From: Sipunculus nudus
Taxonomy: Eukaryota > Annelida > Sipuncula > Golfingiida > Sipunculidae
Assembly (NCBI GenBank): GCA_026874595.1
Contig: CM049309.1
Span: 4,686,076 to 4,750,075 of the forward strand
DNA length: 64,000 nt
Direction: 5' to 3'
In this document: positions 21,701-62,422 of the stretch, piece by piece
How the letters are laid out: each line of letters starts with the position of its first letter
How positions within the stretch are numbered: position 1 is the first letter of the stretch
Notes under the pieces: model-generated
What the model was told of the DNA's origin: nothing
Databases searched by the model: none
What the model saw: only the letters and a program-made list of their open reading frames with translations
Position numbers and translations under genes: made by a program

Positions 21701-21960
21701 TCTGACTGATGGGCTGAAGAGAACCATTCAGACCAGACAGGTTCTGACTGATGGGCTGAAGAGAACCAGTCAGACCAGACAGGTTCTATATGATGGGCTG
21801 AAGAGAACCAGTCAGACCAAACAGGTTCTGACTGATGGGCTGAAGAGAAAAAAGTCAGACCAGACAGGTTCTGAATGATGGGCTGAACAAAGCCAGTCAG
21901 ACCAGACAGGTTCTGACTGATAGGCTGAACAGAACCAGTCAGACCAAACAGGTTCTGACT
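18781..21960. repeat. 42-bp minisatellite, about 75 copies (3.2 kb)
   Basis: The head-to-tail unit is about 42 bp (GACCAGACAGGTTCTGACTG then ATGGGCTGAAGAGAACCAGT, CA). Positions vary between AAC/AGC, CAG/TAG and CTGACTGATGGG/CTGAATGATGGG, and occasional 4-bp insertions occur (AATGACTGATTGG). Blocks recur at larger spacing: a distinctive TTTGAATGAT block is found at 19501, 20559 and 20811, so 252-bp (six-unit) and about 1.3-kb higher-order repeats exist. Because 42 is divisible by 3, long ORFs with 14-residue repeats appear on both strands, broken by the indels. Edges decay at 21960-22080. Confidence 0.95.
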
Positions 21961-22079
21961 GATGACTAAAATGAGACACTTTGTCTACAGATCCTGACTG
22001 GTGGTTTAAAATGAGACAATCTGTCTGAAGATGCTGACTGGTGGTCTTAACTGACTGATACAGCTGGGTTATAGGTGAA

Positions 22080-29840: not shown

Positions 29841-30088
29841 TGTATATATAATGTATGTAAAAATATATATATATATACACATACCTACATAAATAATAAA
29901 GCAATATAATAAATCAAGGCTTAACATGAATATATTTTATATAAAAATTAAAGTATTTTGATATAAATTATATAAATTAATTAAATTATATAAATTATAT
30001 ATATATATATATATATAAACATACTAATTATGCAAGTATACATCGGGTTATCTTACAGATAGATAATATTGAATAAAACGCCCTCCAG

Positions 30089-30556
30089 TGTGACTGCTGT
30101 GATGGTTGGCAGCACCTCAAATGTAATACAGGAGTGTCAGTTGTGGAATATGAAGAGGCGACCAGAGAAGGGTGGCTTGAATGGATGTGCCAGCCTTGCC
30201 GACAGATGGCGACATCGCCAGCCGAGAATTCCGCCGAAGGTGAAGAACAACAACCTGAACCTGAAGACGAGACCGCAGAGGAAGCAACTACTGCAGCCCC
30301 CCTAGATCTGCTTCAGACCGAACCTGTACACGAGACCCCGGAGGAAACAACCACTGCAGCTCTCATAGATCTGCATCAGCCCGAACCCGTGGAGGAAGCC
30401 CCGGAGGAAGCAGTTAATGCAGCCCCAGAGGAAACACAGGCACAGGACGCCAGTCTGTACGCGGAAGACCTCGGTTCCTTCCACGAACCCTCAGCACTGG
30501 GAGAAAGGGACCTGGCCGTTTGGTCAAGTTGCTGCACAAGGAGGCACAGGTTGTGA
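30089..30556 (+). CDS. PHD-finger C-terminal half plus acidic tail (transposon-associated fragment)
   Basis: After a CCCTCCAG acceptor-like site the frame opens with CDCCDGWQHLKCNTGVS and continues to WMCQPC. This is the spacing of the second half of a PHD-type zinc finger (C-x2-C, W-x-H-x2-C, then W-x-C-x2-C). The first two zinc ligands are absent and would lie in an upstream exon. The WQH..C.TG..S..EY..A....W.C..C pattern recalls proteins that accompany FLYWCH/MULE transposases in invertebrates (family recollection, not a search). It is followed by about 75 residues of acidic, Ala/Glu/Pro-rich sequence with two to three copies of a roughly 21-residue repeat (TTAAPLDLLQTEPV, TTAALIDLHQPEPV). 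TGA ends the frame at 30556. Probably a truncated element gene, not a host gene. Confidence 0.5.
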   Translation, partial: CDCCDGWQHLKCNTGVSVVEYEEATREGWLEWMCQPCRQMATSPAENSAEGEEQQPEPEDETAEEATTAAPLDLLQTEPVHETPEETTTAALIDLHQPEPVEEAPEEAVNAAPEETQAQDASLYAEDLGSFHEPSALGERDLAVWSSCCTRRHRL

Positions 30557-33411: not shown

Positions 33412-33705
33412 ATGATGGCTTCCGGGGAGACCGGGTCCGTCTCTAGGCGCCGTTTGGCGAACATACGGTGTATGATGGACTGTGTCCGCAGCTTTAAAGA
33501 AAGCAAACCACTTCCCAGACCTATATGCTACGTCCCTGCGGAGGTTGAATACAAATCGTCGGGGAACGCCAGCCTTGTTTTGTACCGTCAGCCATGTACA
33601 AAAAGTACGAAGATTACAGCTATCCAGTGCTCCAGCTCATCCAGAATAGTGGCGTCCGGAGAGGAACTCTGTAACGCTCAGGGCGAGTGGGCGCGGGTAT
33701 TAAAG
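33412..33705 (+). CDS. HECTD3: HECTD3 exon 1 (residues 1-98)
   Basis: Starts MMASGETG, includes [14 protein letters not shown] (human counterpart has LPAALAFVPREV) and GEELCN, a conserved N-terminal motif. The donor AAG|GTATAA is phase 0. The frame is open upstream to 33229 but crosses a poly-G run, so the start at 33412 is preferred. Either of the two adjacent Met codons could serve. Confidence 0.93.
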
Positions 33706-33998
33706 GTATAATCTGATATTTAATTTTGTTTTGAATCATTACAGGGGTGGTTTCCAGGTTTTAGGAAAAGCAGGGGTCCAAACCAGGACTAATGACAATT
33801 TTACCTAATATATCTGTAACATAAGGTCCGCAGGTCAGGAAAGGGTCGTCAGGCCGCAAAAAATGGTCTGAAACTTTAAAAAAAGGAAGTGCTTATTTCC
33901 ACTCCCCCTAGGAGTTACTAATCCCCATGTTTGATGGAACAGATAAGCGTTTGGTAGAATAGATATTCATTTACAGCGGCTCTATAGGATAACATTGA

Positions 33999-34067
<69 letters not shown>

Positions 34068-37000
34068 GTATATTTATATATATTATATATAAAATTAATA
34101 AAAAGTAATGTTATTGGGCTTATCTTTGAGATGCATATCTATCTAATCAGTATAGTGACAATGGTCTTAAAGCACCCTATGTTTCTTTTATAGTTTTAAT
34201 TTTTCTTTTTAATCAAAGTTCTAGTAATTTTCACTTATTTTGACACCATGGTAACAACATTGAAAATGTTTAAGTTGAGATCAGTGGTATGGTAAATCAC
34301 TGACTCAACCTACCAGGGTACAGGTGACATGAAGCGGCATCATGATCAAGGGTCGAATTCTTCACTGTTTTTCGCAAATAACGATCTTTAACTGGTCATT
34401 TCATGTTAATAACCACTCAGGACTTCATCAAATGCAACAGCTTGATGAGAAAACAGTAATTGATTAAGATAAATACTCATTCTAACACTCCTCGCCAACA
34501 TGCACGCCGCCTAGTGGTAGAAGTTTGAAACAGTTGATTTTGCGTGGGTAAATCTGCACAGCATTTTTGATTGTGAGGTGCCAGTCCAGTTTAACTGTCT
34601 AGGCTTTTCCTGGTATTCTGAGCCAAGAGCTGAAAGCACCAGTCTGAGCATATGGACACAAAACCAGAGCTCACTAGTGGTGCCAACAGTCTAAGAATGA
34701 GGACTCTCAGCCAATATTAAAATATATTGAAATCATCCTTACCCTTCATGTGCTACTTAGAGTTAGTTATTATGATCCACATATAAATTTTCAAAATGAT
34801 TAAACAACTAGACCAACATTTGGCTCTGCAAAAAATTATAAATCTATGTCTTTGGAATTTTTGTGGCACATATAAATGTAAAATAACTGTCAGGGGATGT
34901 TCAGCAAATCATTTATGTTTTAAACTTTGATGTTAAATGCATTAAAATTAAATGAAATTCAATAACAAAACTGAAAAACTTAATTGTTCAAAGAACCTGG
35001 TTCTAGAATTGTGTAACTGTTTTTCCCAGTTGTCCCTATTGCATCTATACAAGTACTTGAGAGAGGATTTTGTAAAGAAAAGCAATTATTAAATATCTTT
35101 ATCCAGGGGAAAGAATGACCATCCATGTTATGGTCACTTAATCTGCCAAAATGCCCAGGACTTTACAAGCTTTTATCATAAGGGGGAATGGAAATAAGCA
35201 TCCCCTTAGGGGGAGGGGAAATGAGCATTCGTTTTTTCCACTCCCATGGAGTGGAAATAAGGCCTGCCTTAAAAAAAGGTTGCTAAGGATAAAAAGGGAT
35301 GGTCCAGACCCCCTTTTGCTACAAAACCTGTGATTTGTCACAGGAGAAGTGCCACAAATGACGATAAAGTAAACTGAAATGAATTTTAATGGAAGTGTAA
35401 TTATCCACAGCTGACATTGTCAGCTGCCTAGAATTTACTCCTGGTCAAAGGAGCAAGTCACATCACACATTACACATGACATTAAGACTATTTATCATAG
35501 CCATCTTCAATTGCCTTCAAAACAGATCTATACCAGCCCTGCAGGAACCATCCCACAGAGCAAATATTACATTTTGCTTACACTCCACAAGCACACAGGC
35601 GTAAGCATGCCTGATTCCGTGCTGGTGTGCTGTCAGTTTAAACAAAATGTAACAGCACTGGCTCTGAGGCAGTCTTCGTTGGGCTGGGAATGTTTAATCT
35701 TAACACCTTAATGTAATAAAAATACTAACTGTATGCAACAAAGATATTTTTAATTAAACTGATTTTCCCCAAGATATAATCATTGTTTCCTTTTGTCCAT
35801 GGTCCCTTTCAACTGAGAAGTTTTTGAGATATTTTGAGGATATCAAACTAGAAACAGGGCTGAAGACAGAACCTCTCCCAACCAAGTTTATGAGTTGTTA
35901 TTCATGATACTATCCTAAGCAATACAATTCTAAGGGCCCGGTGACTTTGAGTTGTGCTTTCCTGCCCTATATTACACAAACCACACTTAGTGATAAGGGA
36001 TCATTGAACAGTCACTTGACCTGGTTAATGCCAACTTAATGCTGAAGGATTGAATATACAATCCCAAAGGCTCAATCTGACATTGATGATACCATGGTTA
36101 TTCTGCATGGTTATTGAATTATGAATAACCATGAATATTTTAATGTATATTTTTGGTATTCATGAATATTTTATTGTATATTGTCTGTATTCATGAATAT
36201 TATACTGTATATTTTTACTTAAATTTTTAGTATTCATGAATATTGTAATATATATTCCAGTTTTCATGAATATTTTAAGATATAATTTCAGTATTCATGA
36301 ATATTGTATTGTATATTTTCAGTAATTTTCATGAATATTCATTGTATAATTTCAGTATTCATGTTAATTTTTTTGTATATTTTCAGTATTCATGAATATA
36401 TTCATGTATATATTCAGTATTTATGTATATTTTATTGTGTATTCTCTGCATTCATGTATATTTTATTGTATATTTTCAGCATTCATGTATATTTATTGTA
36501 TATTTTCAGCATTCATGTATATTTTATTGTATATTTTCAGCATTCATGTATATTTTATTGTATATTTTCAGTATTGGTATATATTTTCAGTATTCAGCAG
36601 ACAAGAAGAACCAGCAGGTGTTTAACGATGAAGAAGCGTGGGTTTTGGTGTGTCCAGCTCAGGTGACAAGTGATGAGGTCCCGGTGTTAAACCTTGTGGC
36701 TGAGGCAGATTCTAAGTTTAAACCATTCACAAGGTCTGTAATGGTACACCCACATGAACAGTGTATATGGCATTTTGAAGAAACATCAGTTAGGTAGTCA
36801 CTTATAGTTAGGTACTAGAATTCTAGGCTTACAGTGCCAGATTCAAGCCAGCAAAAAGAAAGTGTGAAATTTAATAAATTGATATCAGTGTCATATATAT
36901 TTTAATAGCTAGCAATATCAATTTTGAAATTAAAGCATGCGAAGCATGTTCAAAATGTCCTTATAAAATCGGTTTTATCTTCCTGAAAGTTTGGAAATTC

Positions 37001-40000
37001 AGCCTTCATGTCCCGTTTCCCTTAGATATAATAAATGCCCATTGAATGATATTTAAACTATAGTTTATATCTTATATGTAGTTTAAGATGGATTCAATAG
37101 TAAGTATTAAATATAACTCAGAAGAGCACATATCAGGGATCATTGATAATCAGTCAGTAAAAAAATCCCGTAGTTGTTATATTGTAATAAGGTTACAATA
37201 AAGTGAGTAGAAATTCATAAAATTGCATGTATTAAGTTTTTATTAATTTATCGTGTGTCTCTCACAGATGGACAGATGTTGTAGAACAACACTACTCACT
37301 TCATTTGCATTTACAAGAAAGCCGAGCACCGGCAGACACTGAGGCCATGAATCGCCTTCAGTCTGTCCCCCCAAACTGGTCTCTGAACTGTGATGAAGAA
37401 GTGGTCCAGTTCCTGGCTGAGCATGCAGACACGAGCAATGAAAACCTTGGCAGCATCAAAAACTACGTAGAATCAATTGATGTGTCCTCATATTGTGTGA
37501 GTTGTCTTTGCTATGATATTTAACATGCATATTTTCTGTGTATAATTATGATATCTTTTAAAATCTTGAGCAGATCATGAAATAACAGAAATTATGGTGG
37601 GCATTAATGCAAATTGTAACTGTAATCCCTGTGTAGAACTACATTTAACAGATAATATTTATTATAATTGACATTTGCTTTAAATTGTGATGCAGCTCAT
37701 CTGAAGCCATGCCTTTTAAGGTCAAGCAAACCTACTTCAGATTTCATTATTTTGTAATATAATATACTTGCCTAAAAAGTTTAATTATATATATTTTACT
37801 TAAACCTATTTCCTGAAAGAAAGACATTTTTCCTATTTATTTTTCCACAAAAAAACAATTTGGTGTGATTTGTTAAAAAACTATTAGCACATCTATGAGT
37901 ACTGTCAACTTGGCAACAGTTGTCAGCCACAGGAAAAACCATGGTTAGTTCAAATTGTATATGTCAATAAAAGCTTAGTTTATCTGATGCTGTCAGCCCC
38001 AAAGATTTACTGAAGAATTAAAACGTATTGCGAGATTTAAGTAATTTTTAAATTTCCCTGTGACTTCTCACTTAATGCACCAGCTAATTACATCAGGGCC
38101 CAGTCTCTGTTTTTGATGCATTGTACCCTGCACATAAAAATCCCACTTGAATAGACCATGAATTCAGACAACTTCTCTAAAAATTTTACCAATATCCCAG
38201 TAAATTACCTGTTTCATGCTTACCAAGTGTATATGATGAAAAACAGTAATATAATATTTGCTTGGCAGGATGAAGATGGTGCCAAGAACCTGACGGACGG
38301 TGATCCTGATACATTCTGGGAGAGCGACGGCAGCCAAGGGCGACACTGGGTCAGACTCAAGATGAAGAAAGGGACGGTCATTAAGTAAGGTTCCCTAGAG
38401 TTAACCAATTAAACAGACTAACCAGTTAAACAGACTAATGATGTACCCATCATTTCAACATGTGATCTGTGACATATGGGTTTAAGTGTGCACATAAAAT
38501 GCCCCCCCCCCCCCTTAGCGAAACTGAGAACAATAAACCTGTTTAGGTTTGATAAAGGCATGAGGATGAGACATCCACCCAGGAATCTTTAAAAGCTGAA
38601 TAAGGCCATATCCACACTTGGTTCACATCTAAACCATATTATGCTAAACCAGTTTACTTAAGTTTGGAAAAAGTCTGCTATGCGTCTGCACTGTAGTTCT
38701 CGTTACAAAAGCCTAAACTGGTTTATCCAACAACAGTAGTGGTCAAGGATATTCACTGAAACTGACTCATTGGTACTAGAAGTGGATTTGCCTGTACACA
38801 CTAGAAACTGGTTTACTATTAACCAGACTAAAGTAAACTGCACTGCTGTAGACCGCCTTTCAAGTGGACTACAGTTAAACAAACTGATGCAGAGTCATGG
38901 CCTACTGCAGACAGAGTAAATCGATTCACGATCCAGATTATTTGCTAGTGCAGATATGGCCTAACACTTGGACCATACCCAAATCCTCAATTATAGTAGA
39001 ATACAAGACAAGTACCAATAACTACACCGTTACTCGTCCAGTCAATGGTAATCTAAGAAAACATGACAGGAAACAGTTTGGCTGTTTCTGTTGAATTGTG
39101 TTCTGATATGAAATAGAGAATAAAGATTGTTTAGATCAGAAGGTGGTCAACAATTCAGGGACTTTTTCTTGATTTAATTATTTGTGTGTGTGTTCTTTTA
39201 TGGCATCTTTGTTTAACTCTGCAAATATGTTTTCTGAGTATATCTAGGAGTGGTTGTACAAAAGTTATAGACTACTCTATGATACAACACTGATATTCAA
39301 ATCTCTTACTTATTATAAGAAAGATAGTTTATAACCAGCAAGGGAGAGAAATGAACTGTCATCTGTTTTCAGTACCATGGGTAGAACTAGTAAAAGATTT
39401 ATTGATGTATCAGTATATGGATTAATTTGTGATAGTATGAAATATTTGTCATCATTATTTAGGACAATACTAATTGTATGCTGTCTTTGTTACCGGTTTT
39501 CCCTGTCTGAAAATGTGAATCATACTGATTGTGTTTGTATTCTAAGTCTCTCCTAAATGTTTTTGTTTTATAGGAAGCTGTTGGTAACAATTGATGGCAA
39601 TGATGACAACTATATGCCGTCAAGGATTGTTGTGATGGGAGGAGACCAAGGGAATATGAGAGAACTGAATGAAACTCCTGTAGATCTGTAAGTACATGAA
39701 TGAAATGAATGAAACCCCTGTAAGTCTGTAAGTACATGAAAGAACTCCATGAAACTCCTGTAGATCTGTAAGTACATGAAAGAACTCCATGAAACTCCTT
39801 TATATCTGTAAGTACATGAAAGAACTCCATACAACTCCTGTTGATCTGTAAGTACATGAAAGAACTCCATGAAACTCCTGTAGATCTGTGAGTACATGAA
39901 GGAACTGAATGAAACTCCTGTAGATCTATAAGTACGTGGAAGAACTCCATGAAACTCCTGTTGCTCCATAAGTACATGAAAACAAAAACTCAAAGAAAAC

Positions 40001-43000
40001 TCTTGTAGATCTGTAAATGCATGAAAGAACTTGAAACTCCTGTAGATCTGTTAGTACATGAAGGAACTGAATGAAACTCCTGTAGATCTGTGAGTACATG
40101 AAAGAAACTGAATGAAACTCCTGTAAATCTGTAAGTACATGAATTATAAGTACAGACCAAGCCTGTAGATTTATAAGAACATGAAAGAACTAAATAAAAC
40201 TTCTGTAGATTTGTAATATATGAAAGAACTTTATGAAAATCCTTGGAGAACTGGTAGTCATGTTCAGTAACAAAGTAAAACATGATTGATAAAAAATTCA
40301 ATAAAATTTCTGTATATCTTCAGGAGCCCAGTAGGTTGACCCCAGGAGGGTTGAGTTATATTAATTGTCAGTTTGTGGCCTGTTACAGAGCCCTGGACCG
40401 TGTTATTGACCTGGCCATACTGGATGAACAAAAGGAACACTTCCCATACATTGAGATCTGGATCAAGGAATGCAAAGGTGAGACTACACCTCAGGACTAA
40501 TTAGTTAACGAAACATGTCCTAAGGGGGGTATACGTACAGTAGTTGTAACATGATAGAAAATCTTTAACACATAAACTTCAGCATGTTCTTTGGTGTCCA
40601 CAGCCAATACAGATCCTTCAGGTCTTCTTTCATAAAGTGCATGTCATAATATGTGCATTATATCTTTTATGATCAGTAATAGAGGATATGCATATGGAAT
40701 ATGATGATGTGGATGTGACCATATCACTGCTTATAATGATATTGTTCTTTATTGTCTATCTATATTGTCAAAGAAATAATTATAATGATTAAAACACCAT
40801 GATAAATACGACCTTTGGAGTGTTCACATTGATGACTTGATATGTAATGAGACACTATTATATCTTAAATGTCAAATACTGTCACATCATAGTTAACATT
40901 ATACTGTCATAAGACTTTATTGATCTCATGTCCCAGATAATGTCACATTATGGGCATCCATATAAGGTGATGAAATGTCAGTTTATCTCAAAATGTCACA
41001 TAAAATCCTATCATGGATAAAATGGTAATGTGATGAGACACCATGTTGTTATGTCGCTGATGACATCACATTAAGGATGACCTGAATATATGATCAGACA
41101 GTAATTTATCTTGTGATGTTACAGATGATGGGATTGACACCAGGATACACGCCATTAAGATTAAATCTACAAGAGAAAAGGAGATGGGGCTGAGTAAAGA
41201 CTTGTTCAAGTCGGAGAATCTGGTGCGCTATCCCAAGCTCGAGAGTTTTAATGAAGATATTTTGTACCGAAGGACACAAGTATTGTTGAGGTAAGAACAG
41301 AGGAGTTTTCAGATGGAACCTGTAACATGTGCTCATGGTGTCATATCACTGGACTGATTGTTCAGTTGATCATTTAGACAAACCTATGTAGAATAACATG
41401 TTAAATAACTTTCCTCCTCATGCCACTGTTTATAAGTTATAACTTTGTCTGTCCCATTGTCTGTTGGTCCGTCCGTCAGGATTCCTTTCCATGCAATTAG
41501 TTTCCTAAATATTATCTGATTTAATTTAAATTTGGGTCACTGATTGCTCTCATGCATACCCTGGTTTGGATTGGTTTTGGAGTGTCTGTTTGAAAATTTA
41601 TTCTCACCAGCTCCAAAACAAAATTATCAAATTTTGGTCCTATTTCACAACCAAAATTATAACATGTGGAGACATCTTCAGGCCAAAATAAAAACTAAAA
41701 GACATTGATAAGGCAAGCATGAAAGACAACAAGAGAGAAAGGTTGGGGATATAAATTCCATGAATTTGCTTTGTAGCTGTTATTTTTGACAAAAGCCTTG
41801 TTTATGCTTGTATTACTGACAATCATATTTGACAATGATATTTTATTATTCTTAACTAAACTCATGGTATATCCTTGAATTACTGACTGTGATATTTCAT
41901 TTCCAGGTTTGTTAATTTATTAGACAGTGTCCTTCCATACCTGGTCCCTGCCTGGGAGTACTCTATAGGATCTTACCATTCACTTCAGGTGGGTCATTTT
42001 TCTTACTCTTTGTTATATTAAATACTGAATCATATACAAAGATATTGGCTCATATCACTAATTAATGCTATCAACCTGGTATCATTATAATAAAAACACA
42101 TTGACAAGGCAGACATACACATCAGATTAAGCTAAGTCAGGGTGGGAAAGAGGTCAATGAATACCCGAAGTGTGAAAGTATGAATTTATAAAATCATAAA
42201 CATTTACAATGAGTGATCTTTGCAGGCTTTTGGATTAAAGGAATATTTATGCAGTATTCATTACAAATAAAACTATAATCGGCTGTACTACAGGTTTCTT
42301 GTGCACAGCCACTTGTTGTTGTGACAGTTTTGTCCTCTCATATCCGGAGACTTCCTCAGGCCGTGGAACCACTAATGCTCGCAGGTAGATGGCCTTTTTG
42401 TGCTAGGAGTGGGTTGTAGAGTTAGGGCTGGTCATGTTGTCCAACATCATGATTTAGCATAACGGGTCTTTCTTAAAGGCTAGGTGTGAATGGCCTCACA
42501 TATCCATTTGGTTTGCCTGCATATTTCTCTAGTCATCACAGTAATACTATCCCAGTTAGTCACATGGTGTTTTTGGCTAGTCCGGCCTGACAATGCCAAT
42601 TTGTGTAGGATGTAAGTAGATGCCATACGCTGTGATCTACAACCCGCTTTTTGCACCCAAACAGCATCTACCAGTGAGCAGTAGTTGTCCCACAGTCTGA
42701 TGATATCTGCTGATATGAGTGGGTGAAACTGTCACAACAACAAATAGGTGGCTTAGCATAAGAAACCTATAGTATGTAATATACTATACCAGCCTTATGC
42801 AGTTGTTAAGAGATATAAGTCATAGAATAAGTGCCTAAAACTGTGTTTTATTGTTATGATTATTTGAGAAAAATGCTTTTTATCTCCTTTGTTCATGGAT
42901 TTCATTCAAGAATATTTGGAAGTCTATTGCGTCTTCTCAGTATGTATTCTGATTTGCATATAGTCTTAGTGCAGTTGTTCATCCCCTATTTGAATTTTGA

Positions 43001-44957
43001 TGTATAATTCTCTGAAAGATTCTGGATCTTTAATTATGGCATACATAAAAAAAATTGCAGTTGACAATGTGTTTTTTTCTCCAAGTCAGTTGTGAATAAT
43101 GTCTTGTAAATTTAAGGATCTTAACAGTTTCACTTTAATAGTTAAACACACTCTTTTCTCTGTTTCCTGGCTTAATTATCACTTATTTTTGTATTTCTAT
43201 TATAGACCATAAGACAGTTTTTAACCCTCTCAAAAAGAAGAACATCTCTCATAGACAGATTTCTAATGGATACATATAGGTAATTTTTATCATTTAATTC
43301 CTGTATAACGGTGGTATTTTATTAATCTTTAGACAACAACAAAATCATATTTTACAAGGTACTAATGCTTCTTTTGAAATTTTTAAAATCCTAATAAGAC
43401 CAGGTTAAAAATAAAAAATATAATTACTTAGTCACCTTTTTTACTATAGTATTCTCTTACATATAAATAATGTTGCAAACATCAAGGTGACCACTCTTTT
43501 TGTTGTTACTGTAAATATTTGGTAATGAAATTTTAGTTTGATTCTTTGACTTCTATACGAGTCATTTCTTCTACGTATTTTTACACTTCTTTAAAACTGA
43601 AATAATTTCATCTTAGTAAATATTAAGCATAAGTCAGAATGAAGAGATTTCTTGAAAATTAGTAATGAACACTTTTCTACCAAGAAACGAAAATATACTG
43701 TATATGTTTACAGTCGACCAGCAAGAATGCCAAAGCTTTATATCAACAGACGGTTAGCAGCTGAACACAGGGCAGATCCATCTCAAGACCCAGATTGTAA
43801 AAACACAGTGTTTAATCAAATCTACGAAGGCTTAAAACCAAGGGACCAGAGGGAGAAACCACTGGACTACAGGTAAAATCTGGAATAGTTTCTGATGACC
43901 AAGGTAATGCATCAGTTGTGATAAAAAAATGTGACAGTGCCAAATCTTATACTAGGAATATATTGTAAACATGAAATACATTGTTCTCTCAAGGAAAGAT
44001 AATAGTATTTACTAAGATTTCATTCTGACTGGCATCTGTGGCTCAGGGGTAGAGCACAAGACTCGAAGTTAAAATCTCAGCCCAGGACATAAGATTTTCA
44101 CGTTCGGCCCCTACCCAGGGTAAGCGCTCTGCAGGCTTAATGGGAAGGCTGTGCCCCACAGCTGTGTATCACTCACAAACAATGCGTCTTTGTGGGTGGG
44201 GTGGGGGTCCTTGGTGTTATGATGAAGCAATGGGGATGATTACACATCCAGTACCCACAGGTGCGTTAGACACCAGACCTGGGTGACACCAGGATACAAA
44301 AATAGTATGATAGGACACAAGTGCTACTGCCCTGTCACATAGTCCCAAACCAAGACTGAACTCTGCAGATGTACATACTTTGATTAAGAATTGGTTAAGA
44401 GAGCTTAAAAATGGAGCCAGTTACCTCCCCCCAAAATAATTATTTAAAAAAAAAAGTTTTTGTTCGGAAAATTTTCCTGATACCTATTCACAGTAGAAAT
44501 AAACTTGCCCTGGGTGAGATCAGTGGTGTGTTATAAAACATAAAACAGCCACCTGTGCTACTGTTATAAATCTGAATATTTTTTATTCATGACATACTGT
44601 AGATCCCCATTTTTTTGCTGCATGTCTATTTATAGCTGCATCCTGAGTTTTTAAGGTCCCAGTAGCTCTAACTGAAGTGCAAATACTAAAAACTCCCTTA
44701 AAAACCACTTCCAGACTCTGTCCCTGGCTTAGATCTAGCAATAATCAACTGCACAGAGCAAATAAATCATGGCATAGCTGCTTCAATGATCAATAAAATA
44801 AATTGTATTGATTATCGAGGTTAATATGTGCCGATGTACATACCTGTTTAACGAGTACTCTTGCTTGTTAAATTTACTTGTAAAACTTATTTTCACAGTT
44901 GTGAAACAGATTGATTTATCTTCAAGTAAGAATACACGAATTTTGTCAAAAAATATG

Positions 44958-45030
<73 letters not shown>

Positions 45031-48000
45031 TTACAAAATATTTATAATATTTTTTAAATCTTTAAATTAATTTCAATTTTAATTTTTTTTAATTTTCCGA
45101 TCTGAAGTATGATTTGTTATTTGATATAACCTAACAGGTGGCCCAGCAGACATGACGACCAGTGGTGGGAGTGTAAGTTTATCGCTGAGGGAATCATTGA
45201 TCAAGGTGGAGGCTTTAGAGACAGTTTATCTGACCTCGCGGATGAATTGTGCCCTATTGCTAGTGATGTCCCTGTACCTCTTCCATTTTTTGTCAGGTCA
45301 CCAAACCAGGTAGGTTTTAATGTTCCAAACTGTTTTCATAGATAAGAATAATTTGAACACTCACTTGTTCAGAATCCAGCTTTCGCTATTTTTTTTTTTT
45401 TTTAATATTTCTGCATCAATACATCATAAGTGTTAATGCGATGGATTTTTAACTCTTATTTTTGTTTGTGAAGAGGTTAATTGTGCTTGAAAACTTTTTC
45501 CACAAGTTATATTTAAGGATAATAAAACAAACTAGTTCTCTCTGACTTAATTTTGCAACCTATGAACTGGAACAGGATTTTAATGTTGAGACCAACAGTA
45601 AATGTTTGTTCTGTTCATGATACATCTGAACCATTTTAGAAGTAGCTGACCATTACTTTAAGCCTCAGTGTACTAACAAAAGTTGACTGACAGTTAACAT
45701 AAGTATTGAAGTTTTCATTTCTAATTTTGTTTATTTAAAATGTGTGAGAAATAAGTTTATTTTGAAGTAAAGAAATGTTAGATTATTATTTACACTCTTA
45801 AAATCATTTTATTTTTCATAAATGACACTATATTTGTGGGTTTGAGAACCTTTGCTCTTCTCCCTGTTTGTTACAACAGCTGAGCTTTAAAAATATTTGT
45901 ATTTCAAAGTCATATCATCATTTTAATGATGTTTCCTTTCATGTAAATAATTTTACTGGCTCTTCCTTCAGTCTCTCGTAGGTTCCAATATAAACAGGGA
46001 TGTGTATGTCCCCAACCCTTCATGTAAGGAGCTACATAAATACGAGTGGATCGGCAAGCTGATGGGAGCCTGTCTCCGAGGCAGAGAGAGCCTAGTGAGT
46101 AAAAATATAGTGAAGATTCTAACAGACTACCTAATTCTTTGTTTTGTGGCCATATATTTCCTTCTGTTTAACTACCTGGGAAATTTGTAAATATCATTAC
46201 TACGTTCTCAGTTATTGACAGCATCAGTGAATATGCCAGAACTGTAATTCTTAGTACTTCCAAAAAGAAAGACTACAAGGTCAAGGCTAAAACATGTATT
46301 GAGTTCTCAGCAATTTTTTAAGAAACCAGTGAAGGACAATTTTTTTTAATTTTAAATTTTCAATAAAATTTCATATCATTCAGAGATAACATGATGATAG
46401 AATTGATTTGCTTTAACAGCACATCATAAAAAAAATTAAAATTTTATCAAAATATTATTATTTTCTTTTCTTTAAAGAAATGTCCAAGTAGCTGGAACTT
46501 TATTTTTGTAAATTTCTAAAAAAAAATAATTTTTTTTTGGGGGGGGGGGGGGTAGGGGTTGTTAAAAAGTGCTGAGTGCAGTGCCTGATATTTTTTCTTA
46601 ATGATATTGATTTACTGCATGACTAATGCAGATTACTACAATTTCAACTGAACTAGTGACAGTTAACCTCAGGCATGCAAGTTGTTGTTAAATGACAGTC
46701 ATTTTTTCATACACATTTTTCTAACCCATATTGTTATCTAAGTTATATATTGTTTTATTAGTGCAGCAAGTTTAACCTTTGTGGGATTCTGTGTGTAAGA
46801 GATAATTAATACAAACCTCATCTGCAATCACCTGAGTCGTGAGGTACATGTGTGTCATGAGTATGGGCATCAGTGTTTTATGCTATGTTCCAGGTGCTGA
46901 CTCTGCCAATGTTTTTCTGGAAGCAGCTGGCGGGGGAGAGTGTCACATGGTCACGTGACTTTCACACCGTGGATGCTGCTGAGGTAAGATGGGTGTAGAG
47001 GTTGCCATAGAAACACTATTCATGGTAAAAGTTGGAGAACCATAATGCTCAAAATTCCATTCTTTAATCAAAGTTAAGTTCTACTAATTAAAATAGTGAG
47101 ATGAACATAATTATGTTCAACCAATAGCGGGCCATTCTTCCATATTCACACCTCTGCCAGGAGGTATTGTAATTCTCTCTCGGTTATTTTTTTAAACGCC
47201 CGTCTATGATGGGACTTATTATGGTATACCCACCGGACAACCATCAGTCTGTTAACTTTTAGTGTCCCTGCTATAACTTACCATGGCTTTGATGGATTTT
47301 CATGAAAACTCACCATAACTACTTACCAATATATTATCTTGCCTGAGTTTCTATTTAATCCATGCATATTTAATGAGGTGAGAGGTCACAAGGCTACTTT
47401 GTGGTGTTGTCTCGATAACTTATCAGGAATATGTGGATTTTGATGAATCTCAGCAGAAATATAAACCAATATATTCCTTCCCGTAAGTTTGATTGACAGC
47501 AAAATACATGCATTCTCAGCAAAAAACATACATAATTAATGAGTTCACAGGTCACCAGACTTTTGTGTTGCCATGATTACCTAACAAAATTCTTATGGAT
47601 ATTCGAGAAACAGTATAAATATTAATCAATTCAGTTCCTCACCTAAATTTAATTCTCAGCTAATTTCATGCCTATTTGATGAGGTCAGAGGTCACTAGAC
47701 ATAAGATGGGCATATTATGCACATATGCAGTGCTCTTGTTGCTGTTTGGTTTGTCTGTTAGCAGCTTTACTAAAAAAGTTATGAGTGGATTTTGATAAAA
47801 TCATGAGGTTTATGGTAACATGCAAGGAACAATCCTTTTAACTTTTAGAGATAATCTTGATCAACTTAATTTTATTAGGAAATTTAAGTGAAGGCAAAAG
47901 TGATTTGGGAGCATCCCACAATAGGGGCCACCATATGGTGAAGGCTTGCATTCCTTATAATACATATTTCTAGTTGATATATTTAACAAACTACAATGTT

Positions 48001-51000
48001 ACACTTTGAAACCTTTGTTCTTCTACAGTATTATTTATTCGAGGAACATGGGGAAAAGCTCTTCATCATTGTATCCGCCAAAACGAAGTTTTGCGGATAC
48101 TATGTTTTTGACCGGGTTCCGCCGCCGCCGCGTTCGTTTCCGGAGAACTCCTCTGAGACTACTGGACAGATTTTTCCGAAACTTACACAAATTATCGGGT
48201 CACATGTGAACTGGTGCCTAACCAAGTGACCTTGACCTCTGACCTTTCGTCTCTGCCCAGCTTCCGTTTGTGCGTCTGTTTCCACACATAATCCCATATA
48301 TCTCAGGAACTGTTTGACTGATCCGGAAAAAATTTTTACACAAATGTAGCCCTGGGATAGCTTTATAACATACACAACAAAAGGTGGCGCCACCTGCAAC
48401 CATGTTTGCACAGTGTCCATCTGTTCATCTGCCTGGGGTTAAAATCACTCATATCTCTGCAGTGGTTTTACTAATTCACCTAAAATTCGGCATGCATATA
48501 CATCCTAGATAGCTTTCTCGATTTTGTGACAGGTGGCGCCACCTACATTCACGTTAATGCTCCACACATAATCCCATATATCTCGGAACCGTTTGACCGA
48601 TCCGGAAAAATTTTTTACACAAATGTAGCCCTGGGATAGCTTTATAACATACACAACAAAAGGTGGCGCCACCTGCAACCATGTTTGCACAGTGTCCATT
48701 TGTTCATCTGCCTGGGGTTAAAATCACTCATATCTCTGCAGTGGTTTGACTAATTCACCTAAAATTCGGCATGTGTATACATCCTAGATAGCTTTCTTGA
48801 TTTTATGACAGGTGGCGCCACCTACATTCACGTTAACACTCCACACATAAATCCATATATCTCAGGAACCGTTTGACCGATCCGGAAAAATGTTTTACAC
48901 AAATGTAGCCCTGGGATAGCTTTATAACATACACAACAAAAGGTGGCGCCACCTGCAACCATGTTTGCACAGTGTCCATTTGTTAATCTGCCTGGGGTTA
49001 AAATCACTCATATCTCTGCAGTGGTTTGACTAATTCACCTAAAATTCGGCATGTGTATACATCCTAGATAGCTTTCTTGATTTTATGACAGGTGGCGCCA
49101 CCTACATTCACGTTTATGCTGCAGACATCCAAGCTCATATCTCGGCAACCGTTTGACCAATCAGGAAAAAAACTTTACACAAATGTAGCCCTTGGATAGC
49201 TTTATAACATGAACAAAAATGGTGGCGCCACCTGCAGCCATTTTTGCACAGCGTCCATCTGTTTGTCTGCTGTGGGATAAAATTACTCATATCTCTGCAG
49301 TGGTTTGACTTTTCCACATGAAATTTTGCATGTGTATATATCTTGGATAGTTTCTCGTTCAAATAACAGGTGGCGCCACCTACAATCATGTTTATGTGGC
49401 AGAGATCCATTCTAATATTTAACACATGTAACTCTATATCCCCTTGCCACTCAATCAATGCCTCACTTCACCCGTCCTTCTCTGATTTTGGCGGATACAC
49501 GTAGTCGCTTGTCGACTACCCGTATTCTAGTTTACATTGTGATCTTCTTAAATACCAAGTGTAAACCAGTCGTTATCTTAGGTTCTTACCAGTGTATAAT
49601 AGATTATTTTTTTTGTAATAATAAATCAGAGAAATAAATAATCATTAATGGACCTCCTTACAAATATCTTTTTCTACAGGTAAAACTCATAGACAATCTG
49701 GAAAATATGACAGAGGAGTTGTTCAAGGGATTTTTTGCTGATTTACGGAAGTGGCAGTGTGTGTTAAGTGACGGGACAGTGGTACCGCTAAAACCAAATG
49801 GCATGGAGATAAGTGTAACCTACGATGACAGACTGGAATATGCTGAGAAGCTGAAACAGACCAGGATGTGTGAAGCTGATGCCCAGGTGTGCTTCATTTA
49901 TAAAATATTGATTTAATGTAAAGCCAAGGTTCATATGCCCTTAAAACATTAAAATCCATGACTTTGAAATGTGAAATTTCCTTTATTAAAATGTTGTGAA
50001 TTCTTGAAAATGACAATAAATTGTTTATGTTATAAGTTTAAACTTTCAGATAGTTTAAGATATATTCCATCAATATTCTCATGTCAGAACCTTATAATTT
50101 TGTATGTTATTATGAATTAATTGTGCATGGTAAATTAACACTTACATTCTTTCCCATTTCAGCTGGCTGGCATTTATTGTTTATAATTGTATGTTATTTA
50201 GGTTGGCATGATCAGACAGGGCTTGCTATCTGTGGTGCCTCAAGCTGTCCTGGATCTACTGACCTGGCAGGAACTAGAGAAGAGGATTTGTGGAGATCCC
50301 ATCATCACAGTGGAATCGTTGAAAAAGACAAGTGAGTGTATCCAGACTGCTGTTACACGAGTCACATAACTTGTCCTCACACAGTATTTGTTACATAGTC
50401 AGTGTAACTGTTATAAAACCCATCCCCTAATAGTTACCAATAAAATCTCCATATAGCTAACAAAAATAAACTGTACTATCAAGTAAACCATTCTGTTCAT
50501 GGCTGGATCTTTGTATATTCTGTCAGGATTTAATTTTTTTTCACTTTACACATCCACATGTCTGTACACATCACCCTTCCTCAAGATGTCAATTCTACAG
50601 AAAACAGTACCTCATCCAGTAAGGCAGTGTGGGATAGCCAGGACTACCAGTCTGAACTGTCTAACTTTAAAATCATAATTTGCTACATCTTAAAAAAAAA
50701 CACCTGTTTCATTTCATATGCCTATGCTTACAATATATTGCTTTTTATATAAATGGCCTTGAAGCAGTTCTTATCCAGCATTTTGAAAGGACTACATTAC
50801 CCTCTTCACTACGTTTATACCTATGCTGCTGGTGTACGTAGAAGCCCCAGTGCATTGTGGGCAGCAGGTTTTGAAGCTAACAAACCTGAACCAGCAGAGT
50901 CGTACTGCTATGTTTGATTCGGTACAGTGTGTGTACACATGAATATTTAAATACAAGAATCACATGTAAACACAGCCTTGTATTGCATTTTTGTGGGGTT

Positions 51001-53617
51001 CCTCTGTACTGTGACCCAGCAGTTGAAATGATTACACTCCCAGGACCTGCAGGTGCAGTAGACACTGGGCCTGGGTGACACCAGAATATAAGATAAATGA
51101 GTGGAAACAAGTGCTGCTGCCCTGTGGTGTAGGACCAAACAGAAATGAACTCTGCAGATGTATATACTTAGTTCAAGAATAAGACAAGTCAGCATTAAAA
51201 AATTGAGGCTTTTATCTCCACCAAAAGGTATATATATATATATTCAGAAACATTTTTAACACTTTTAATAATTCTTCTGAATAATTCTAACGTGCACTAA
51301 ATTTCTAACATGAACTGTGATGTTAAGTGCTAACACAATTATATTTTCTCTGATTACTTCAGCCCCCCATTTTTAAACTTTAATATAACTATTTTCTCTT
51401 AGCTTTTTTAGCCCACTATTTAAGCTATAACATAACTATATTCTCTTGACTTTTCAGCCCACTATTTTAGCTTTAAAATAACTATATTCTCTTGACTTTT
51501 CAACCAACTATTTAAGTTTTAAAATAACTATGTTCTCTTAACTTTTTCAGCCCACTATTTTAGCTTTAAAATAACTATATTCTCTTGACTTTTCAGCCCA
51601 CTATTTTAGCTATAAAATAACTATATTCTCTTGACTTTTTTCAGCCCACTATTTAAACTTTAACATAACTGTATTCTCTTGTCTTTTTCAGCCCACTATG
51701 AGGACTTGGATGCCACAGATTCCCGGGTGGTTTATATGTGGGAAGCGTTGTCTAATTTCTCCTGCGAGGATCTGAGTCGTTTCTTGAGATTTGTAACTGG
51801 TCGTCGACGGTTACCAGCTCCAATATACATTTGTCCTGGCAAAGAGTAAGATTTGTTGCCCAGACCTCCTTAACTGTTGTTATTTAACTATTTGTAGCAC
51901 CTACATTGAGAACTGTTCTTGAATTTTGTTGTTAGTTTCTGTTCAGTTCACCATTATTGTTTATAATAAAGGCATCTGAGTAGCAGAATGCCCTTTAGCA
52001 GTTATTGATATTCATGTTTGAATCCCTTGGTGAATTAAGTAGAAATATTTCATGCTGGAAAATTAAGTTCATATCTGCACAATACTAGGTTCAGGATTGT
52101 TGTTCTTTTTGTGGCTAATGACCACTACGCTCCTAAGGCAGCGGTTATACACTACAGTCACCCCAGATCTCTTTTCTCATATCCACAGCTCTGTATAGCA
52201 AGGTTCTCTGGGTTTGACCACCAGGGTGAGCACAGAGAAAAGAAGTGTTATCAGACCAATGATAGCGGGGTATCACATTGTGCATCCAGCTCCAAATTTT
52301 AAACATGAAACACCCCCCTCATTGGAGTGATAACATTTTTATAGCACTTAGCCAAGAATCAGACCAATGCAAGCTGAATCTATTTGTGTCAGTCTGAAGA
52401 GTAAGATTAAATTTCATTGATCTTAAGTTCTCTCATATTTTATGAAGTATTCCATTATGTAGGTTCGCATGTTATTATGATGTTTGTGATTAGATATATG
52501 CATTGATTAGATAATGATAAAGCTACATTTTGTTTGCAGGGAAACATCAGACGCTCTGCCAGAGTCTTCAACATGTGCTAACACCCTATACTTACCTAAC
52601 TATACTAGGTAATTATATTTGTATTATAGTACAATGGGTCCATATGTTTATGGAGTGTATGTCTATGCCCAAGCTTACCATCGCACTGAATTTGTCTGGC
52701 AAATTGCACTTGAGATATACATTCCTTCCGAAAAATGTCGATTGGTTACCTTCAGTATGAATTGGCACGTAACATAAATCACCAGAGCAAGTATAAATGC
52801 AACAACACCTGAACAAGACAATGTTGGGTTCAGGTACACAATTCAGAGTACCTGTACTTGTACCTGGCTATCATGTTTAGGAAGTACCTTGTACTTGTAC
52901 CTTCCTATACCTGAAGTATGTATAAGATACTCCTGGTGTTTGTATGTTACTTGAAATGGACACCAGGCTTGGGTCAATTACATATATCAAGCTGTCACCC
53001 CTGTCAGGACAGTTATCTAACCCAGGTACAAGTTTTATCTCTGCACCCTTTGAAGTTGAGTAAGCTAACTGGGCCAGTAGCGAGCTAGTGAGCCTCTAGC
53101 CTCTAAAAAGGAAGTCCGTTGTGGCATTGCTAGCACAAGTAAAGTCTAACCAACAAAGGATATGAGGTTCTGTGGTTCATCCACAGTGAAACTAATAGAA
53201 AATTACCACAATACTTGTATTCCAGTATTCCTCGCAACAAATAATGTGAAATAAAAAAAAATTTGGTATTCAGTGTGACACTGATTTATTTTCCAGCCCA
53301 TATGAGATTCATTTATTGTGTGCTTGAAAAAACCACTAAAGCACTGGCTAGATATATTGCATATTTTTTTTCAGTTCTAAAGACTTCTATTAATTTAAAG
53401 CAGCCACTCTCTGTAGTCAATGTTGAAAATTCTGTGAAGATACAATTAAAGCTGAGAAAGATATTACCCATAATATAATGTAAAAATTTAAATGGTTAAG
53501 TAATTAATGATGATTGTTATCTGTGTTTGCAGTGCAAAGTTGGCGGAGGAGAAGTTGAGGTACGCAGCATACAACTGCATAGCGATTGACACAGACATGA
53601 GTCCCTGGGAAGATTAG
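33412..53617 (+). CDS. HECTD3: HECTD3 orthologue, E3 ubiquitin ligase (18 exons, complete)
   Basis: HECT-type E3 ligase: the catalytic cysteine accepts ubiquitin from an E2 and passes it to substrates. Vertebrate HECTD3 acts in the cytoplasm. The spliced CDS is 2496 nt, 831 residues plus stop (human protein 861). Joined exons: 33412-33705, 36591-36733, 37268-37496, 38269-38384, 39574-39687, 40389-40477, 41125-41290, 41907-41988, 43206-43279, 43714-43872, 45138-45309, 45972-46094, 46894-46983, 49680-49886, 50202-50331, 51692-51845, 52540-52608, 53533-53617. All introns are GT-AG and phases agree. Domains: N-terminal region (1-200), APC10/DOC domain (about 205-380, with [21 protein letters not shown]), linker with [12 protein letters not shown] domain (about 485-831) with [10 protein letters not shown], and the catalytic loop SSTC with Cys793, 38 residues from the C-terminus as in human. 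It ends [11 protein letters not shown]. The start MMASGETG aligns with the human N-terminus. Identification rests on recognising near-identical motif strings along the whole protein. Confidence 0.97.
33706..36109 (+). other. HECTD3 intron 1 (main part)
   Basis: No exon seen. It contains a TA tract at 34001-34080 and a related pair of GGAAATAAG/CTTATTTCC segments near 33890 and 35185-35260 that look like repeat remnants. The stretch 35200-35300 is partly palindromic around CTCCCATGGAG. Confidence 0.6.
36110..36590 (+). repeat. 31-bp tandem array at the 3' end of HECTD3 intron 1, each unit ending in a 3' splice site
   Basis: About 15 degenerate units of roughly 31 bp (CATTCATGTATATTTTATTG then TATATTTTCAG). 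The units end in TTTTCAG followed by (T/C)ATTC. The real exon 2 also begins TATTC, so the exon's first bases belong to the unit. Clear decoy AG sites end at 36479, 36509, 36540 and 36571; the real one ends at 36590. Decoys at 36479 and 36509 are in frame with exon 2 and the intervening sequence has no stop. Confidence 0.85.
36591..36733 (+). CDS. HECTD3: HECTD3 exon 2 (residues 99-146)
   Basis: Reads [20 protein letters not shown] and continues to FKPFT. The acceptor TTTTCAG is phase 0. The donor is AG|GTCTGT in phase 2, a weaker GT site, but the join to exon 3 restores Arg-Trp-Thr matching the human RW motif. Confidence 0.9.
37268..37496 (+). CDS. HECTD3: HECTD3 exon 3 (residues 146-222)
   Basis: Reads [12 protein letters not shown], then [20 protein letters not shown], nearly identical to the human segment leading into the DOC domain. 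Acceptor CTCACAG, donor TGT|GTGAGT, phase 0. Confidence 0.95.
37497..38268 (+). other. HECTD3 intron 3
   Basis: 770 bases of AT-rich intron with no repeat family recognised. A plus-strand ORF from 38158 is intron read-through joined to exon 4. Confidence 0.9.
38269..38384 (+). CDS. HECTD3: HECTD3 exon 4 (residues 223-261), DOC domain core
   Basis: Reads [20 protein letters not shown] then [19 protein letters not shown]. The YWESDGSQ..HWVRL..KKGT signature defines the APC10/DOC beta-sandwich. Donor AA|GTAAGG, phase 2. Confidence 0.97.
38385..39573 (+). other. HECTD3 intron 4
   Basis: Contains a 13-base poly-C run (38502-38514). The 38550-39060 stretch is rich in AAACTGGTTTA-type motifs that suggest an old interspersed repeat. 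No exon seen. Confidence 0.7.
39574..39687 (+). CDS. HECTD3: HECTD3 exon 5 (residues 261-299), DOC domain
   Basis: Reads [20 protein letters not shown] then [17 protein letters not shown], matching human [20 protein letters not shown]. The donor CT|GTAAGT is phase 2 and is the first of a long series of duplicated donors. The last 20 exonic bases are part of the repeat unit. Confidence 0.95.
39668..40250 (+). repeat. 40-bp tandem array duplicating the exon 5 5' splice site
   Basis: The array begins inside exon 5. Each unit of about 40 bp carries GAAACTCCTGTAGATCT, a copy of the exon end, followed by GTAAGTACATGAA, a copy of the donor. About 14 units. Intact donors recur at 39728, 39768, 39808 and 39848 (GTAAGT) and at 39888 (GTGAGT); later units are decayed (ATAAGT, GTAAAT, GTTAGT). 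Retaining any unit reads Leu then TAA at 39689-39691, an immediate stop. Long minus-strand ORFs here are repeat artefacts. Confidence 0.95.
40389..40477 (+). CDS. HECTD3: HECTD3 exon 6 (residues 299-329)
   Basis: Reads [20 protein letters not shown] then IEIWIKECK, matching the human IIEIRIVECR strand of the DOC domain. Acceptor TGTTACAG, donor AAAG|GTGAGA, phase 1. Confidence 0.93.
40478..41124 (+). other. HECTD3 intron 6
   Basis: Contains loosely repeated ATGTCACAT/GATGAGACA motifs from 40800 to 41100 but no clean tandem unit. No exon seen. Confidence 0.7.
41125..41290 (+). CDS. HECTD3: HECTD3 exon 7 (residues 329-384), end of DOC domain
   Basis: Reads [20 protein letters not shown] then [19 protein letters not shown]. 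The DDGID.R...KIKS motif is shared with human. Donor AG|GTAAGA, phase 2. Confidence 0.95.
41440..41730 (+). repeat. Dispersed repeat, copy 2 (sense), in HECTD3 intron 7
   Basis: Inverse-orientation relative of 14290-14660. Shared blocks include TGATTGCTCTCATGCATACC, GGTTTTGGAGTGTCTG, TTTGGTCCTATTTCACAA and ACATGTGGAGACATCTTC. No ORF. Confidence 0.6.
41907..41988 (+). CDS. HECTD3: HECTD3 exon 8 (residues 384-411)
   Basis: Reads [20 protein letters not shown] then GSYHSLQ. Human has ILDSVLHHLVPAWDHTLG. Acceptor TTCCAG, donor CAG|GTGGGT, phase 0. Confidence 0.93.
42288..42772. mobile_element. 485-bp MITE in HECTD3 intron 8, TA target duplication
   Basis: The left end CTACAGGTTTCTTGTGCACA and the right end (reverse complement CTATAGGTTTCTTATGCTAA) form terminal inverted repeats of about 45 bp. 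They extend through AGCCAC and GTTGTTGTGACAGTTT on each side. TA flanks both ends (42286-42287 and 42773-42774). No ORF. The termini and TA duplication suit a Tc1/mariner-superfamily non-autonomous element. Confidence 0.8.
43206..43279 (+). CDS. HECTD3: HECTD3 exon 9 (residues 412-436)
   Basis: Reads [20 protein letters not shown] then MDTYR. Human has IKQVKQFLLLSRQRPGLV. Donor AG|GTAATT, phase 2. Confidence 0.9.
43714..43872 (+). CDS. HECTD3: HECTD3 exon 10 (residues 436-489)
   Basis: Reads [20 protein letters not shown] then [15 protein letters not shown] and EKPLDYR, almost identical to human. It leads into the HECT domain. Donor AG|GTAAAA, phase 2. Confidence 0.97.
44030..44420 (+). repeat. 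tRNA-derived SINE-like repeat in HECTD3 intron 10
   Basis: The 5' head TGGCTCAGGGGTAGAGC has the form of a tRNA A box (RNA polymerase III promoter). A diverged B-box-like segment follows. The body (CAGACCTGGGTGACACCAGG, then GAACTCTGCAGATGTACATA) is repeated at 50990-51210. That structure is typical of tRNA-derived SINEs. It does not fold as a complete tRNA, so it is not called a tRNA gene. Confidence 0.65.
44959..45026. repeat. (TA)n then (GATA)n microsatellite
   Basis: Alternating TA tract followed by four GATA units, in HECTD3 intron 10. Confidence 0.95.
45138..45309 (+). CDS. HECTD3: HECTD3 exon 11 (residues 489-546), start of HECT domain
   Basis: Reads [20 protein letters not shown] then [19 protein letters not shown] and [11 protein letters not shown]. 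Matches human with very few changes. Donor CAG|GTAGGT, phase 0. Confidence 0.98.
45310..45971 (+). other. HECTD3 intron 11
   Basis: AT-rich intron with a short poly-T run near 45391-45403 and no feature otherwise. Confidence 0.9.
45972..46094 (+). CDS. HECTD3: HECTD3 exon 12 (residues 547-587), HECT domain
   Basis: Reads [20 protein letters not shown] then [18 protein letters not shown]. Human has [20 protein letters not shown]. Donor CTA|GTGAGT, phase 0. Confidence 0.96.
46095..46893 (+). other. HECTD3 intron 12
   Basis: AT-rich with a 14-base poly-G run at 46539-46552 directly after a T run. No exon seen. Confidence 0.9.
46894..46983 (+). CDS. HECTD3: HECTD3 exon 13 (residues 588-617), HECT domain
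   Basis: Reads [20 protein letters not shown] then [10 protein letters not shown]. Human has [22 protein letters not shown]. Donor GAG|GTAAGA, phase 0. Confidence 0.96.
47140..47985 (+). repeat. Dispersed repeat copies in HECTD3 intron 13
   Basis: At least two related segments. One starts near 47150 (GCCAGGAGGTATTGTAATTC). The other, 47730-47985, has GTTTGTCTGTTAGCAGCTTT, AAAGTTATGAGTGGATTTTG and the shared end GGCTTGCATTCCTTA. That end block also closes the copies at 28.2 kb and, in reverse, 60.56 kb. Confidence 0.6.
48070..49500. mobile_element. Element with palindromic ends around a 280-bp tandem repeat (HECTD3 intron 13)
   Basis: The left end GTATCCGCCAAAACGAAGTT continues into TTGCGGATAC, a hairpin. 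The right end carries the reverse complement TTTTGGCGGATAC. Between them a unit of about 280 bp is repeated four times: the block CCTGGGATAG recurs at 48351, 48630 and 48910, and a variant at 49190. Each unit holds two similar halves, each with the 12-base palindrome GGTGGCGCCACC. Overlapping minus-strand ORFs simply read through the repeats. A non-autonomous element with internal tandem amplification. Confidence 0.7.
49680..49886 (+). CDS. HECTD3: HECTD3 exon 14 (residues 618-686), HECT domain
   Basis: Reads [20 protein letters not shown] and later [20 protein letters not shown]. It is the least conserved HECT exon against human (VLSDQQVVELIPGG). Acceptor TTTCTACAG, donor CAG|GTGTGC, phase 0. 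Confidence 0.93.
50202..50331 (+). CDS. HECTD3: HECTD3 exon 15 (residues 687-730), HECT domain
   Basis: Reads [20 protein letters not shown] then [13 protein letters not shown]. The [15 protein letters not shown] motif is identical in human. Donor A|GTGAGT, phase 1. Confidence 0.96.
50990..51215 (+). repeat. SINE-like repeat, second copy (HECTD3 intron 15)
   Basis: Shares blocks with 44200-44420: GGGCCTGGGTGACACCAGAA, AAGTGCTGCTGCCCTGTG and GAACTCTGCAGATGTATATA. The tRNA-like head is missing, so it is a 5'-truncated copy. Confidence 0.6.
51362..51691 (+). repeat. 47-bp tandem array duplicating the exon 16 3' splice site
   Basis: About seven units of 46-48 bp, each ending in a pyrimidine tract and TTTTCAG and followed by CCCACTAT. 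Those eight bases are the first eight of exon 16. AG-bearing decoys end at 51457, 51550, 51596 and 51644. One unit (near 51503) has lost the AG (CAA). The real acceptor ends at 51691. Decoy use would add 47 or more bases with a frameshift or an in-frame TGA. Confidence 0.93.
51692..51845 (+). CDS. HECTD3: HECTD3 exon 16 (residues 730-781), HECT domain
   Basis: Reads [20 protein letters not shown] then [19 protein letters not shown]. The [11 protein letters not shown].. motif is typical of HECT C-lobes. Donor GA|GTAAGA, phase 2. Confidence 0.97.
51846..52539 (+). other. HECTD3 intron 16
   Basis: AT-rich. A GC-richer block at 52110-52290 may be an old SINE-like repeat but lacks a clear polymerase III head. 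No exon seen. Confidence 0.7.
52540..52608 (+). CDS. HECTD3: HECTD3 exon 17 (residues 781-804), catalytic cysteine
   Basis: Reads [20 protein letters not shown]. The Cys codon at 52574-52576 is residue 793, the thioester-forming cysteine by alignment with human LPESSTCSSTLFLP. Acceptor TTTGCAG, donor AG|GTAATT, phase 2. Confidence 0.97.
52609..53532 (+). other. HECTD3 intron 17
   Basis: No exon seen. The 52840-52935 stretch repeats GTACTTGTACCT-type motifs. Confidence 0.85.
53533..53617 (+). CDS. HECTD3: HECTD3 exon 18 (residues 804-831 and stop)
   Basis: Reads [20 protein letters not shown] then DMSPWED and TAG at 53615-53617. Human ends [20 protein letters not shown] then WEE. Confidence 0.98.
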
Positions 53618-62300: not shown

Positions 62301-62422
62301 AGATACACTTACATTAATTAAGAGTGATTAAATTACTTATTCAACAGCAAAAAACGACAGGAAGTTACCTGGTCGTGTGTAAAAGTATCAGCGGTGAGTT
62401 TTACCTTCTTTTGAGAAAAAAA

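Follow-up and report, generated by a model that had tools for sequence, protein, structure and literature searches.

The donor splice site of exon 5 in HECTD3, a gene that lies complete in the 64,000-nucleotide stretch of contig CM049309.1 analysed here (the window), has been duplicated together with its exonic context into a 40-bp tandem array of about 14 copies (39656..40243, plus strand), which runs over the boundary between exon 5 and intron 5. We interpret this array as a neutral junction-spanning minisatellite, a so-called mirage, and put the probability of this reading at roughly 0.85. Mirages are minisatellite-like tandem duplications of exon-intron boundaries, which the accessible parts of two reports describe from amphioxus, in Adh3, the globins BflGb6 and BflGb9 and troponin C (PMC3087553, PMC3902484). 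The exon 5 array has the anatomy by which mirages are defined, since its repeats span the boundary and its units hold exonic bases as well as splice signals. It is probably a new example of a kind already known, and probably a neutral one.

The original prediction had assigned the gene to HECTD3, and this identity is well founded. The exon model, in which translation begins at the first in-frame ATG (33412), comprises 18 coding exons for 851 residues on the plus strand (33412..53617, the end coordinate including the stop codon); its junctions are GT/AG and the frame stays open. Searches with Pfam profiles found a HECT domain (E 5.3e-56) and an ANAPC10 domain (E 7.6e-12, residues 236-375), and a 285-residue part of the protein matches human HECTD3 (PDB 9r85) with an E value of 3.2e-113. 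Exon 5 (39574..39687, plus strand, 114 nt), the protein of which was aligned with human HECTD3, contributes its last 32 nt as the first unit of the array. It is followed by the authentic donor GTAAGT (39688..39693, plus strand, phase 2), which the exon model places at 39688, exactly as had been claimed. Intron 5, of phase 2 and 701 nt in length, leads to exon 6 (40389..40477, plus strand), defined by the exon model and by the alignment with human HECTD3. At the array we see neither a new intron nor a new exon; exon 5 reads into exon 6 as in human HECTD3, and the alignment continues across this junction.

Tandem Repeats Finder delimits the array to 39656-40243, with a period of 40, 79% matches, a score of 661 and 14.6 copies, a number that rests on one assembly with a single matching locus. 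Together with the unit alignment, this bears out the proposal that the donor was duplicated along with its exonic context. The array does not begin at 39668, as had been stated, but at 39656, which is 32 nt inside exon 5, so that the first unit consists of coding sequence and the authentic donor, while 13 more copies lie in intron 5. Each unit is thus composed of 32 exonic nt and a donor, and the boundary crossed is 39687/39688. Among the downstream copies, GTAAGT is found at 39728..39733, 39768..39773, 39808..39813 and 39848..39853, and GTGAGT at 39888..39893, all on the plus strand. These five had already been recognised; two further strong copies on the same strand, GTGAGT at 40090..40095 and GTAAGT at 40131..40136, had been overlooked. 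Three of the 13 downstream copies carry weaker GT forms (40013, 40050 and 40213), and in another three the GT is gone (39928, 39968 and 40173). An additional, off-register GTAAGT is present at 39720, in copy 1 of the array.

The repetition is not due to chance, since a 24-mer taken over the exon 5 junction matches intron 5 at up to 23/24 bases, with 12 positions reaching at least 17/24, beyond what was obtained with any of 60 shuffled queries (best 18/24). Aligned with the exon copy over 40-45 columns, the units match it in 27 to 38. Since the homology of the protein to human HECTD3 continues from exon 5 into exon 6, the exon copy was probably the original and the source of the intron copies. 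The unit also contains CTCCTGTAG/ATCT/GTAAGT (slashes mark actual or possible splice boundaries), and splicing inside the array would leave a 36-nt intron between copies, probably too short for splicing. On the minus strand, a stop-free frame of 176 codons (window 39462-39989) runs across the donor array; reading frames of this sort are taken as by-products of the repeat.

Probably a 40-bp segment that began 32 nt before the end of exon 5 and ran into the start of intron 5 underwent tandem duplication, and slippage or unequal crossing over then raised the copy number. Duplication across a donor would keep one donor at the exon, whereas the other copies would fall in the intron and leave with it. 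As a consequence, the array can lengthen without cost to the protein, provided that the first donor is used. We infer that this donor is used nearly always, because it is transcribed first and because the 82 nt of unique exon 5 sequence upstream of the array support exon definition. Since the copies share the 32-nt exonic context of the authentic donor, donor choice must depend on information outside the repeat unit, and the deciding information would be either the unique 82 nt upstream in exon 5 or timing. A stable RNA structure that might hide the decoy donors was not found, as exon plus array folded no better than shuffled sequences (z +1.24).

Similar arrangements are known from other systems. 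According to the accessible text on amphioxus mirages, these are likewise tandem, boundary-spanning segments that include a splice signal, with their copies in the intron and the coding exon intact, and they occur on both donor and acceptor sides, as is the case in HECTD3 (PMC3087553, PMC3902484). The same sources report regular splicing together with length instability, and for the troponin C mirages and similar repeats in PGBD5 the available part of the report states that no aberrant mRNAs were generated (PMC3902484). Mirages have also been proposed, in the accessible portion of the first report, as a source of new introns (PMC3087553). Introns gained through tandem genomic duplication, as in the potato RdRp gene, resemble the HECTD3 case in that the duplication includes splice signals (PMC4974935), but HECTD3 shows no sign of a new intron or exon. 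The HECTD3 array differs from the amphioxus mirages in that it resides in another gene and has up to 14 copies of 40 bp. Its host is probably not a lancelet, since the genome of 1.43 Gb is larger than those of lancelets; the reported hosts of mirages are cephalochordates, although such a host is no essential part of the definition. Among the results listed in our searches of the open-licence literature, this HECTD3 array was not described, nor were mirages in animals other than lancelets. Work on amphioxus Adh was reportedly carried out by Canestro et al. in 2002.

Two readings would give the array a regulatory function. In the first, copy number or trans-acting factors would set the share of downstream donors used and thereby the amount of full-length HECTD3; the original prediction had proposed a length-variable switch of this type, which we consider unlikely. 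In the second, which appears quite unlikely, the array would act as a rheostat: more donor copies would draw more U1 small nuclear ribonucleoprotein to the intron side and yield more HECTD3 mRNA that ends in Leu319-stop and is degraded by nonsense-mediated decay, so that array length, differing between individuals, would tune the amount of ligase. In favour of a switch, the array holds seven strong donors downstream of the authentic one, all with its exonic context, and each of them would extend exon 5 to Leu319 followed by TAA (checked for all seven). The predicted outcome, a leucine and then a stop, therefore holds for every strong donor, although the residue is 319 and not 300, and leakage to these donors would produce premature-stop mRNAs that are probably degraded. 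Human IFI6 is similar to HECTD3 in having a minisatellite at an exon end with donors in its repeat units, the IFI6 unit being shorter than that of HECTD3. It offers a precedent for repeat units serving as donors: in the accessible text, two downstream units of IFI6 are used in this way and give rise to three mRNA species, whereas in HECTD3 such use would truncate the protein (PMC4526556). Moreover, SRSF1 and hnRNP A1 are reported, in the available part of the source, to shift donor choice (PMC5585400).

Against a switch stands, first, the finding that the early stop is generic in HECTD3: read-through gives a stop after one residue at 9 of its 17 introns, so that the stop in intron 5 indicates no special design. 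One source of such early stops on read-through is the TAA that is inevitable in any phase-2 intron starting with GTAA. Second, an alternative-donor switch would be expected to conserve donor cores above their surroundings, and the copies, compared within this one array, do not appear to do so. Differences from the exon copy were found at 6 of 66 sites in the core and at 14 of 242 outside it (P 0.40), a count based on 11 of the 13 downstream copies, two having been dropped for indels or divergence. When the full unit is counted, with 8 of the 13 copies, the core shows 4/48 differences and the rest of the unit 27/272 (P 1.0). Third, similar arrays occur at other junctions, and the amphioxus counterparts, as far as the accessible text goes, splice regularly, the mirages leaving splicing undisturbed (PMC3087553, PMC3902484). 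The absence of special conservation in the donor core, together with the generic nature of the early stop, led us to reject the length-variable switch as the best reading.

Two other junctions of HECTD3 carry such arrays, both on the acceptor side. At 36130..36596 (plus strand), the exon 2 acceptor (ttttcag/TATTCA) is repeated upstream in intron 1 with a unit of about 31 bp, and the final copy is the in-frame acceptor of HECTD3. At 51358..51699 (plus strand), the exon 16 acceptor (tttttcag/CCCACTAT) is present in eight aligned units of about 46 bp, the last of which takes in the first eight exon bases. Among the 34 HECTD3 junctions, only the exon 5 donor and these two acceptors show at least two outward tandem copies, the threshold used. 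The gene also contains four copies of a 279-bp unit (window 48281-49396), situated within intron 13 and away from junctions.

Junction arrays of the same anatomy were detected in three myosin loci, L031, L042 and L048, among the loci fetched for the best 30 of the 75 matches that the PF00063 profile gave in the same genome. The L031 array (1823-2299; 82-bp unit, 5.8 copies) is built from copies of a myosin acceptor and the start of the exon behind it, which has RNYHIFYCMLAG. An acceptor array in L042 (2592-2890; 31 bp, 9.4 copies) lies upstream of the myosin exon VDYFNNKIICDLVEQ, an exon judged by eye. In its 31-bp unit, 10 exonic bases lie between an acceptor and a donor of the GTAAGG type, and each unit could serve as a 10-nt microexon. 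In L048 (523-1522, with the gene on the minus strand), a 36-bp unit present in 27.8 copies repeats the myosin donor ACTGACAG/GTCAGT with the exon end, and this array is the closest parallel to that of HECTD3 exon 5. With regard to the myosin genes themselves, in one of them (G000:C2:44848559-44854198) a single region of the myosin-head profile (about 90-153) is matched several times in succession, perhaps by alternative exons of a muscle myosin. One muscle-myosin exon scored highest against PDB 3i5f, which we take to be a squid structure, barely above vertebrate and other chains.

Several observations weigh against a neutral mirage spliced at its first donor. In-register GTAAGT or GTGAGT is retained in 7 of the 13 downstream copies, so that strong donors remain. 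On a donor-scoring matrix, the authentic exon 5 donor is weak, with 4.5 bits; 14 of the 16 other real donors of the gene score higher and 2 lower. The seven downstream copies reach 4.5 to 5.2 bits on the same matrix, the two GTGAGT copies lying slightly above the authentic donor at 5.2, and donor strength therefore gives no reason why the first donor should win. GT sites at or above the score of the authentic donor number 9 in the 701 nt of intron 5 and 0 to 14 in the other HECTD3 introns. In classical experiments with two identical donors, splicing often went to the intron-proximal copy, and on that basis misuse would be expected in HECTD3. Lastly, 3 of the 4 arrays in HECTD3 touch a junction versus 0.81 expected (P 0.028, with the given array included and the exon 2 array counted as a junction array through a 30-base tolerance).

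Such placement would suit a reading in which the minisatellites of this genome arise preferentially at splice junctions through a splicing- or transcription-linked process, the HECTD3 array being one product. We regard this as very unlikely. In its favour, 2 of the 8 arrays in the myosin loci also touch a known junction (1.02 expected, P 0.27), and a third of the eight lies at the exon judged by eye in L042, the addition of which gives P 0.069. Without the given array, 4 of 11 arrays touch a junction versus 1.6 expected (P 0.064). Arrays thus lean towards junctions, but the tendency is not significant once the given array is omitted. Minisatellites are dense in this genome (1.43 Gb, assembled into 153 contigs), a background that favours the neutral reading: 22 arrays were counted in the window together with 20 fetched stretches, and they cover 24,040 of 260,000 bases, although 10,000 of these array bases come from L016 alone. 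The entire 10-kb stretch of L016 (1-10000) is a 52-bp satellite in 193 copies. Against a preference for junctions, coverage shows no enrichment there, as arrays cover 5 of 114 edges (3/34 in HECTD3 and 2/80 in the myosin loci, the latter probably too low because these edges derive from profile matches and are inexact) versus 33 of 450 flank points. The corresponding controls are 38/252 for HECTD3 intron points and 87/600 for random points (57/570 without L016).

Motif counts lead to the same side of the argument. GTAAGT triplets spaced 20-50 occur 15,519 times in the genome, and their ratio to the single count, for which hexamer frequencies were taken from 349,694 sampled bases, is 93. For the control motifs the same ratio is 59 (TGAATG), 59 (AGAGTT), 32 (TTGAGA), 12 (AATTGG), 58 (GGTTAA), 89 (TAGATG) and 145 (GTAGAT). 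GTAAGT was the highest in comparison with the first five controls, a lead that was removed by TAGATG and GTAGAT, the last two added, and it shows no excess over the range of the seven (12 to 145). Large arrays weigh heavily in these numbers, since matches and not arrays were counted. Arrays with the donor hexamer are therefore common, but not commoner than arrays with other hexamers. An assembly artefact, finally, is extremely unlikely: tandem repeats are hard to assemble and the copy number comes from one assembly, but the units differ from each other to the extent given above and the locus is unique in that assembly.

Elsewhere in the window, a 42-bp unit is repeated in about 75 copies at 18793-21964, with TTCTCTTCAG/CCC in its minus-strand sequence. 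Where this array ends there is a possible short exon (about 18804-18757, minus strand), followed by ATTGAG/GTAGGC. A Pfam search of the adjoining frame gave no match, and to call this a junction array is a guess. An open frame at 30077-30553, which includes a 63-bp repeat, weakly matches a PHD finger with a score that stays under the Pfam cut-off, and part of a gene encoding a C-type lectin domain (Pfam Lectin_C, E 3.1e-05) occupies 62318-64000.

The exon 5 array of HECTD3 offers a natural experiment on donor selection, in which the spliceosome has to single out one of many near-identical donors that share their exonic context. If the host is indeed not a lancelet, mirages extend beyond the cephalochordates. 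A genome with several mirages per gene would moreover allow their origin, their preference for junctions and their effect on splicing to be measured.

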